Shown: one piece after another, positions 51,717-54,144 of the stretch | Layout: every line of letters starts with the position of its first letter | Position numbering within the stretch: position 1 is the stretch's first letter | Source of the DNA: Anaspis maculata | Taxonomy: Eukaryota; Arthropoda; Insecta; Coleoptera; Scraptiidae | Assembly (NCBI GenBank): GCA_949128115.1 | Contig: OX421966.1 | Coordinates: forward strand, 62,493,416 to 62,557,415 | DNA: 64,000 nucleotides | Direction of reading: 5' to 3' | Translations under genes and position numbers: made by a program | The notes under the pieces: generated by a model | Databases searched by the model: none | What the model was told of the DNA's origin: nothing | Seen by the model: only the letters and a program-made list of their open reading frames with translations

Positions 51717-54144
51717 GAGTATTAGCAACAGTGCGATATGTTCAAAAGCAATCAACAGTTTACCTTCGAGGTATAATGCTTTTCGAACAGCTTGGGACTC
51801 TGTTTCTCCTGTGGACCAGACTTTTGAAAATCTGACGGCAAGATTACTAAAGGAGGAAACACGAATGCAGAGTGATGATTCGGAAATGTCTCGTCTTGCT
51901 TTGGAGGTGAAAGCTTTGCAAAGTAAGCTGGAAGCCACAAGTTTCAAGAAAAAGAAAAATGTAAAGGACTTGAAGAAAAACACCAACTGTAACTACTGCA
52001 AGCAGAAAGGGCATTGGGCCCGGGAATGCAGGAAGAGAATCGCCGATTCGGGAGATGGAACGGGAAGATCTGCAGGTGCTAATTCAGCCTATATTTGTGA
52101 CATTTCATCCTTGTATTCAGCCAGTTCTGACGTGGAAAAATCGGAATGGATATGTGATTCGGGCGCGAGTGTACACATGACAAGCCATAAAGAATGGTTT
52201 ACGAAGTTGGAGCCAACTGTCAAGCCTGTAAATGTCAAAATTGCAAATGACAAAGTGATCGCGGCGTGTGGAACTGGAACGATTGAATTTCAAGCGCGCG
52301 TTGGAGGAAAGTGGCACAACAGAACGATGCATAATGTACTCTATATTCCAGAACTAAGCCGAAATTTGTTTTCAGTGGGAGTAATGACTGACAAAAACTT
52401 TACTCATCATTCTTTTAAAAATCGCTGTGAGTTTCGCGACAGCGACGGTAAAGTCTCGTGCGTTGGTACGCGAAATAACAACTTGTGGGTGATGGAGTTT
52501 CGAGTTGAAAGTCAACCAGAGTGCAACTTGAGCAAGAAAACTTCCATGAAATTATGGCATGATCGGCTTGGTCATGTCAACTGCAACTCAATAAAGAAGA
52601 CAGCGAATACCAACATGGTCAAGAGTTTGAATATTGATGACAACGAGGAATTTTTCTGTGAAGCTTGTCAGCTCGGAAAGCAAGCCAGAAAAATGCATCA
52701 AAGCTCAGCCAGAGATCGATCCAAGAAGCCAGGTGAGATGATACACACAGACGTGTGTGGTCCGATGAAAATTTCGCCACCTAGTGGAAAATTCAACATC
52801 GAAACAGAGGAAGTTACCTTGAGTTTCGGAAATGAAGAAATCCAGCAACAAGAAGTCGTTCTACCTGAGGAAGCAGAAAATGATATTGAAAATATCAGTC
52901 AAAGCTCAGAATCAGTACAAGAGAACCACGAAGAGATCACCGATGATGAAGATTATGAATTCGACGGGCATTTCGATGCTGAAAATGGAAATAATCAACC
53001 GAGACAACTGAGAGACAGGAACAATATTCGTCCTCCTAACTGCTACAGCCCGTCTGCCGTCTACTGTTCAATTTCTGAACCGGACTGTTATGAAAGCGCC
53101 ATAAAGTGTGCGGATTCAAGCAAGTGGCAACACGCTATGCAAGAAGAAATGGATGCTTTAAAATCGAATGATACGTGGACGCTGATGAAATTACCGGATA
53201 ACGGACGGGTGATTGACAATAAGTGGGTTTTTCGTGTAAAAACCGATCCGGGCGGTAACGCGATACGTTATAAAGCGCGTCTTGTTGCACGCGGCTTTAC
53301 GCAAGAAAAAGGTGTCGATTACCAGGAGACTTTCGCGCCGGTTGTGTGTTATGACTCAATTCGTATTCTACTTGCACTAGCTGCTGAACAAGATTTGCAA
53401 ATAGCTAACTTTGACGTGAAAACCGCGTTTCTGTACGGTGATTTATCGGAAAATGTGTATATGAAACAGCCAACGGGATTTGTGAACGAGAATGAGCCAG
53501 ACTTGGTGTGCAAACTGAACAGGAGCCTGTATGGATTAAAGCAGTCCCCTAGGTGCTGGAACTGTCGCCGTCGGTCGCAGAGAGAAGCTGCAGGTCTTCG
53601 GCGACGACTACCCCACCAAAGACGGGACCGGCGTCCGCAACTAAATCCACATCCACGACCTGGCCGTCGGCCACCTAAAGGCCATCGAGAAGCTCGCCCG
53701 GCCGGGATTCAAGAGCTGAAAGACCTACAACCTGGGCACGGGACGCGGCTATTCCGTCCTGGGGATGGTCAAGTCGTTCGAGAAGGCGTCCAGCAGGCCA
53801 GTCAAGTACGACGTCGCGACGTCGCGACGCGTCGTGGCCAAACGCGAGGGCGACGTCGCCAGCTGTTTCGCCGACGCCACGCTGGCCAAAGCCGAGCTGG
53901 ACTGGGTCGCGACCAAGGACATCGCCGAGATGTGCAAGGACACCTGGAGGTGACAGGGGCACAGCAACTCCATACCAGAATCAAACACATGGATGTGAAA
54001 GTGCATTTTGTGCGGGATGAGTGTGAAAAGGGCAATATTTCCGTTAATTATCTGAAATCAAGTGAGCAATTAGCGGATCTTTTCACAAAACCACTCGCGA
54101 AAACAGTTCTGAATAATTTGGTAAAAATGTTGAACTTGTCGTAA
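51673..54144 (+). pseudogene. Copia gag-pol chimera, internally deleted
   Basis: A single open frame runs to the stop at 54142-54144. In order it has the gag end with a CX2CX4HX4C zinc knuckle (about 51984-52031), protease DSGA motif (52160), the GAG-pre-integrase LWHDRLGH (52553) with CEACQLGK, and an integrase start HTDVCGPM. It then jumps to a linker and the RT N-terminal part ([45 protein letters not shown] at 53120-53562). From 53563 to about 53970 the frame crosses a captured GALE fragment out of register, giving Arg-rich nonsense. It then re-enters copia RNase H (TRIKHMDVKVHFV, ADLFTKPLA). The integrase catalytic core and the RT YVDD-type motif are missing. No active polyprotein is expected. 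Confidence 0.9.
53564..53956 (+). pseudogene. Captured UDP-glucose 4-epimerase (GALE) fragment
   Basis: One base out of register with the copia frame, this encodes the C-terminal ~130 residues of GALE, the Leloir-pathway enzyme interconverting UDP-galactose and UDP-glucose. It runs [58 protein letters not shown] and CKDTWR, in family order and without frameshift. It has stops at 53642 (where RDYIH is expected to have Tyr), 53717 and 53951 (TGA where a Trp codon fits). Six extra codons sit before VAKREGD, in a GACGTCGCGAC slippage repeat. There are no introns across the fragment, so it probably came from mRNA. It is strongly GC-rich, like the DCUN1D3 exon, unlike the AT-rich copia body. It is not functional. 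Confidence 0.93.

Follow-up and report, generated by a model that had tools for sequence, protein, structure and literature searches.

Retroviral transduction of cellular genes, in the form of oncogene capture, was reportedly described by Herman and Coffin in 1987, and transduction by way of a fusion RNA is the classical model of this process. LTR-mediated retrocopies in animals are said to have been reported by Tan et al. in 2016. In plants, maize Bs1 is an LTR element with pieces of host genes, and we know of no splice-precise junction in it.

LTR-mediated retrocopies in animals and a template-switch model for their formation are described in the available parts of two reviews (PMC5408686, PMC8232201), the first of which mentions Bs1. 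A further paper describes, in its accessible sections, switches from one packaged RNA to an unrelated one in plant elements (PMC13317346). For LINE-1 chimeras, the absence of the source element, long introns and splice-precise joins are taken to suggest trans-splicing in the available part of the study (PMC13174262). Searches of the open-licence literature turned up no animal copia element with a splice-precise capture and later amplification, nor any paper that combines GALE with copia or reports a capture in a beetle. The present case concerns an element of the beetle Anaspis maculata, located in a stretch of 64,000 nucleotides, referred to as the window.

Structure of the element and its GALE segment

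Positions 48378-54511 of the window are occupied by a copia element, flanked by the 5-bp target duplication GCCAT on the left (48373-48377) and on the right (54512-54516). Between its LTRs (48378-49624 and 54261-54511), 1 of 251 sites is different, so that the near-identical LTRs and the target duplication reported in the first-pass annotation are both borne out. The 251 bp of the 5' LTR are split by a 988-bp insert (48475-49462) with an 8-bp duplication, GCCGCCGC, and perfect 13-bp terminal inverted repeats, on account of which we take it to be hAT-like. This insert post-dates integration, as the 3' LTR is without it. Immediately 3' of the LTR lies a putative primer-binding site, GGTTATGGGCC.., at 49625-49640, which is presumably a copia-type half initiator-tRNA-Met site. 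The first ~25 codons of gag (49757-49825; weak tblastn match to residues 1-25 of P0241, E 0.007) are followed by a palindromic insert of 1.5 kb in gag (49826-51347) with a TTA duplication (49823-49825 and 51348-51350) and arms that are 83-100% complementary, varying by stretch. From the palindrome and the TTA duplication, it is presumably PIF/Harbinger-like. The continuation of gag, with a frameshift near 51670, the zinc knuckle, the protease region and GAG-pre-integrase span 51348-52788, and at 52785-52788 the junction of an integrase deletion falls at TGGA microhomology, ~211 codons being absent in comparison with relatives. The first part of the reverse transcriptase (RT; 52789-53563) ends at the putative copia splice donor position, which reads C|GTAAGT in GALE-less relatives. 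It is followed by the captured segment (53564-53952), which from exon base 1 onwards comprises most of the terminal exon of host GALE, and by the C-terminus of copia RNase H with the 3' untranslated part (53951-54260), TG at 53951-53952 being common to both templates. The LTRs, the primer-binding site and all parts between them, apart from the two inserts, are on the plus strand.

The order gag-protease-integrase-RT, an RT of the RVT_2 type, the paired LTRs and the 5-bp duplication place the element in Ty1/copia; domains were assigned via Pfam (Retrotran_gag_2, gag_pre-integrs, Pol_BBD, RVT_2), and the position of the integrase was read from relatives. The relatives P0241, P0242, P0244, P0246 and P0247 reveal the loss of the integrase, the C-terminal half of the RT and most of the RNase H, with ~0.87 kb of pol replaced by GALE and not split by it. 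Judged by these losses and the gag frameshift, the window element is a defective derivative. The integrase deletion, the Harbinger-like gag insertion and the presence of the chimera in multiple copies were overlooked by the first-pass annotation.

Selection for an 834-codon frame through GALE was rejected: 14% of synonymous shuffles are equally open, and one length in three preserves the frame by chance anyway. In a protein search with the chimeric frame, the GALE stretch was absent among the best 120 of 2,287 matches, a single distant plant row that spans it at 29% identity within these 120 being taken as a chance alignment. Rfam and tRNA scans gave 0 matches. Elsewhere in the window, a 267-bp unit occurs in five tandem copies (13273-14585), and a purine-rich 333-bp tandem repeat occurs in two copies (26026-26693), the minus strand being open there over 224 codons.

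The GALE segment of ~389 bp lies on the sense strand and follows the GALE frame. It is positioned after a 13-residue RT motif and before the RNase H tail, as had been annotated, and its homology is certain, with E 3e-38 against human UDP-galactose 4-epimerase and E ~1e-50 and up to 68% identity against beetle GALEs in the best rows of the search. By tblastn, window positions 53564-53956 align to residues 257-381 of Anthonomus GALE. An extension of GALE to 53973 (QGHSNS) was rejected, since relatives show the QGHSNS part to be copia. In a tree of 22 rows, the segment groups on a long branch among 14 beetle or unnamed rows, with support of 86/82, which is not strong. Two 5'-nucleotidase (5NUC-like) copies lie at a distance on either side of the element (29023-30423 and 58524-59978 (-)), and a search with the second alone gave beetle 5NUCs as its closest relatives. 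Host and GALE donor agree, because this neighbouring gene is also most beetle-like. Inside the segment there are two in-frame stops (TAA and TGA) as well as an in-frame insertion of 18 bp, and a copia base creates a third stop at the 3' junction. Since the exon starts in phase 0 and the copia donor leaves one codon base, GALE and pol are in different frames; decay is therefore expected.

The host gene and the two junctions

The source genome comprises 757.8 Mb in 50 contigs. Host GALE is found in pieces at C1:133347393-133348173 and 133352368-133352499, followed by a 29.4-kb intron and a terminal exon from 133381897 to the stop, and its intron number, as suggested by tblastn, is about 4. A second, more distant GALE-like gene at G000:C1:23343205-23345992 (L036) matches Anthonomus GALE at 45-57% in several pieces. 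The host exon preceding the 29.4-kb intron ends in ..CAG|gtgaga. The window segment is 91% identical to the terminal exon over 393 columns, 18 of which are gap columns, and base 1 of the insert is base 1 of this exon (C1:133381897, ..aattccag|GTCGCC), the acceptor position being read from the genome sequence and not from a transcript. The captured segment lies within one host exon, and the preceding intron is absent at the 5' join. The earlier description of the segment as being without introns is true and yet uninformative, since the host gene has no intron in the captured stretch; intron loss is not visible in the alignment to host GALE.

At the position of the 5' junction, all seven GALE-less copies found with the site read TGGAACC|GTAAGT; four of these read ..TGCTGGAACC GTAAGT TTG, and the three others read likewise. 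The chimeras read TGGAACT|GTCG (15/15), or in longer form ..TGCTGGAACT GTCGCC or GTCGTC. C|GTAAGT is a consensus splice donor. Because exon base 1 and a consensus donor both lie at the join, the 5' junction looks like a splice junction, with the motifs pointing to a join between the copia donor and the acceptor of the GALE terminal exon. Just before the junction, 15/15 chimeras have T and the natives C. This difference falls where joining would create CpG, and one later base change must be assumed to explain it. A pattern search at the donor returned at least 22 sites, 15 with GALE and 7 native ones with GTAAGT, and no other host gene was found at the same copia donor among them. As in LTR-mediated retrocopies, host sequence lies between LTRs in sense orientation. 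From the position of the 5' junction at splice-site positions we infer an RNA origin of the segment, which lends support to the original proposal of capture at the RNA level.

The GT present in both the donor and the exon start makes the join ambiguous by 2 nt, and a switch at this microhomology is formally possible. It would belong to a scheme of two blind template switches, from copia RNA to spliced GALE mRNA and back, in which exon start and GTAAGT coincide by accident. The sense orientation of GALE, its replacement of part of pol and the clear microsimilarity switch on the 3' side would also suit this scheme, but in mature mRNA nothing marks the exon-exon boundary, and the sole GTAAGT counted in the sense strand of the element (1 per 3,596 bp, LTR and integrase left out) sits exactly at the join. 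The joint chance of the exon-start and donor coincidences is ~3e-5, a rough, post hoc estimate that assumes 5 GALE junctions, and two blind switches are considered improbable. Still less probable is a patch at the DNA level, in which GALE sequence served to mend a break in a copia copy and the repaired copy went on to spread. Filler repair likewise replaces sequence at short homologies, and the host genome has the captured stretch in one piece; the start of such a patch, however, would need to hit both the genomic splice acceptor and the copia donor exactly, with zero intron bases included.

The 3' junction is, by its sequence, a template switch at a similarity of 7 of 8 nt between host TGGCAGAG and copia TGACAGAG. 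Host GALE reads CCTGGAGGTGGCAGAGC at this place, native copia ATAAGGCTGACAGAGGC and the chimera CCTGGAGGTGACAGGGGC, with TG shared; L013 and L014 differ here, reading ..GACAGAGGC. Capture by template switching, as the first-pass annotation had proposed, is thus upheld for the 3' junction and not as the sole route, the 5' junction fitting a splice.

An assembly artefact, or an independent GALE retrocopy inserted into copia, is scarcely credible. Nothing was found in favour of either: the word AGGTG, which lies 9 bp upstream of the 5' join and recurs at the 3' join, fails to flank the insert on both sides, and neither poly(A), GALE 3' UTR nor a flanking duplication was seen in the sequence inspected around the insert. 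The replacement of copia sequence speaks against an inserted retrocopy, and the recurrence of both junctions at 15 places on 7 contigs does not fit an artefact.

Spread of the chimera and order of events

The GALE insert gave 18 matches in the genome, which represent 13 unsplit and 2 split chimeric copies and 1 GALE-only place, the host gene. Both GALE junctions are present in all 15 chimeras, window included. A single integration at this locus, as originally envisaged, does not account for them; the capture is older, as 14 further copies share both junctions. Both LTRs were found in 13 of the 15 chimeras (the window and 12 others), all 13 with matching 5-bp target duplications, and their LTR pairs differ at 0-2 sites each, with 5 mismatches in total, window included. 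L013 and L018 have no 5' LTR within the stretch examined. L015 and L017, on different contigs, both have ACATC as target duplication, along with a few more bases in common, their flanks otherwise differing. A segmental duplication was rejected for this pair, the flanks of which agree only in 13 bases at the insertion point and in one other word of 10 bases, and a target preference is possible. Nested insertions of ~3-4 kb occur in three chimeras (L022:2579-6178 (gag); L019 from 7358 into L020, L023:6928-9880 (within GALE part)).

The integrase deletion is located at a TGGA repeat, and its junction is common to 14/15 chimeras; in the exception, L014 (C2:72637274), it was removed by a larger deletion spanning that place. 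A copy at C2:118538962-118542075 has the integrase deletion without GALE, and its RT and RNase H are still native. The deletion junction also occurs at C6:19816777, in a decayed copy whose RT end lies outside what is seen. The integrase deletion is older than the capture, as its junction also exists in a copy that lacks GALE, and the order shown by the junction sequences is integrase deletion, GALE capture, spread. In 6 copies, the sides of the integrase junction are at least as far apart as the missing stretch, leaving the integrase or more between them, and long open reading frames occur among these integrase-spanning relatives. Such open-frame relatives could presumably move the chimera in trans, in agreement with the suggested mobilisation by intact relatives.

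Very probably, the chimera arose from a spliced copia-GALE fusion RNA and one RT switch, and then spread by means of intact relatives. An integrase-less copia element would have been transcribed in the beetle germ line, and its RNA would have been spliced from the C|GTAAGT donor in the RT to the GALE terminal-exon acceptor, giving an RNA with copia at its 5' and GALE at its 3' end. This fusion may have arisen by trans-splicing, or in cis if a copy was then located in the 29.4-kb GALE intron. In this assembly, no copia or LTR match was found across 69 kb of the GALE locus, the whole intron included. A source copy may have been lost or may be polymorphic, or trans-splicing may have taken place. 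The fusion RNA and a normal copia RNA would have been packaged together, and first-strand synthesis on the normal RNA would have switched to the fusion RNA at TGRCAGAG, probably in this direction, by which the chimera would have gained its 3' LTR. As the 5' join fits a splice, this one switch would suffice. The chimeric cDNA would then have been integrated using the proteins of intact relatives, transcribed anew and carried in trans to 15 or more sites, with the out-of-frame GALE decaying neutrally and the flanks being exchanged with GALE-less copia RNAs.

The chimeras form group A, with 13 copies including that of the window, and group B, with L021 and L022. Nine changes relative to the host exon are common to 15/15 chimeras, with polarity set for one only; one of the nine replaces a leucine that is invariant in 20 beetle or unnamed rows. 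A tenth shared difference is the A of the junction stop, copia's own base. The stops, the D-to-N and E-to-G changes and the 18-bp insertion of group A do not occur in group B, which has its own stop, and the GALE frame was therefore open at the A/B split. The idea of an already decayed GALE pseudogene as the source, which came from the stops in a young element, was rejected on this basis. L018, in group A, has an additional small deletion in its GALE part.

Divergence between A and B in GALE is 3.4%, and within A 0.6%; in each non-GALE segment, the A/B value is at most ~1.5 times that within A. Fixed A/B differences, counted with gaps ignored, with the leader from 12/15 copies and with some RT stretches partial, amount to 9 of 372 columns in GALE, 2 of 789 in the RT (45-51 bp before GALE), 1 of 295 in the tail (the 39th base) and 0 of 1,889 in LTR, leader and gag, fixation being judged on few copies, as group B has two members. 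The 3 non-GALE columns all lie within ~51 bp of GALE. Frequent exchange with GALE-less copia RNAs, the presumed recombination partner, would leave a flank pattern of this kind. Such exchange between copia RNAs is reported for the Onsen copia family in the available part of the study (PMC5668417). The GALE insert itself is without partner in GALE-less relatives, which makes the extent of flank exchange measurable.

Relation to described captures

As in retroviral transduction, an LTR element is combined with a host exon, through a putative fusion RNA whose upstream join comes from splicing or readthrough, here with the motifs of an element donor and a host acceptor at the 5' join. The downstream join by non-homologous switching, here at a short similarity, and a defective product in need of a helper are further likenesses. 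The present case differs in that the element is an insect Ty1/copia element, GALE is out of frame, spread occurred within one genome, and the chimera is without sign of selection for the captured gene.

With LTR-mediated retrocopies, as far as the available parts of the papers describe them, the case has in common a cellular RNA that would have been copackaged, microsimilarity-guided switching, a partial mRNA and the flanking LTRs. In contrast to the reviewed model in those parts, where the joins are template switches, the 5' join here fits a splice and the product is a 15-copy family. The LINE-1 chimeras, in the part of the study available, also have an exon boundary at a splice site, long introns, a proposed cis- or trans-splicing and a source element mostly absent from the gene; they are, however, non-LTR elements with the host exon upstream (5'), whereas the host exon is internal here (PMC13174262). 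Bs1 likewise carries host gene sequence in an LTR element, but is a plant element.

Almost every component of a capture is present in a single animal genome, with the progenitor state, the donor motif, the exon boundary of the donor gene, the switch point and 15 daughter copies, and the daughters give the order of later steps. Retrotransposon gene capture is in this way tied to the classical retroviral model. Among the copies found at the donor site, the chimera is commoner than its GALE-less relatives (15/22). The broader proposition, for which the chances appear evenly balanced, is that host exons may enter insect copia elements through use of a latent splice donor in pol, possibly in trans and without the element ever having been in the gene, by a route shared with acute transforming retroviruses, and that the loss of integrase and RT together with the gain of a host exon was, given these numbers, no hindrance, and perhaps a help, to the spread of the chimera.
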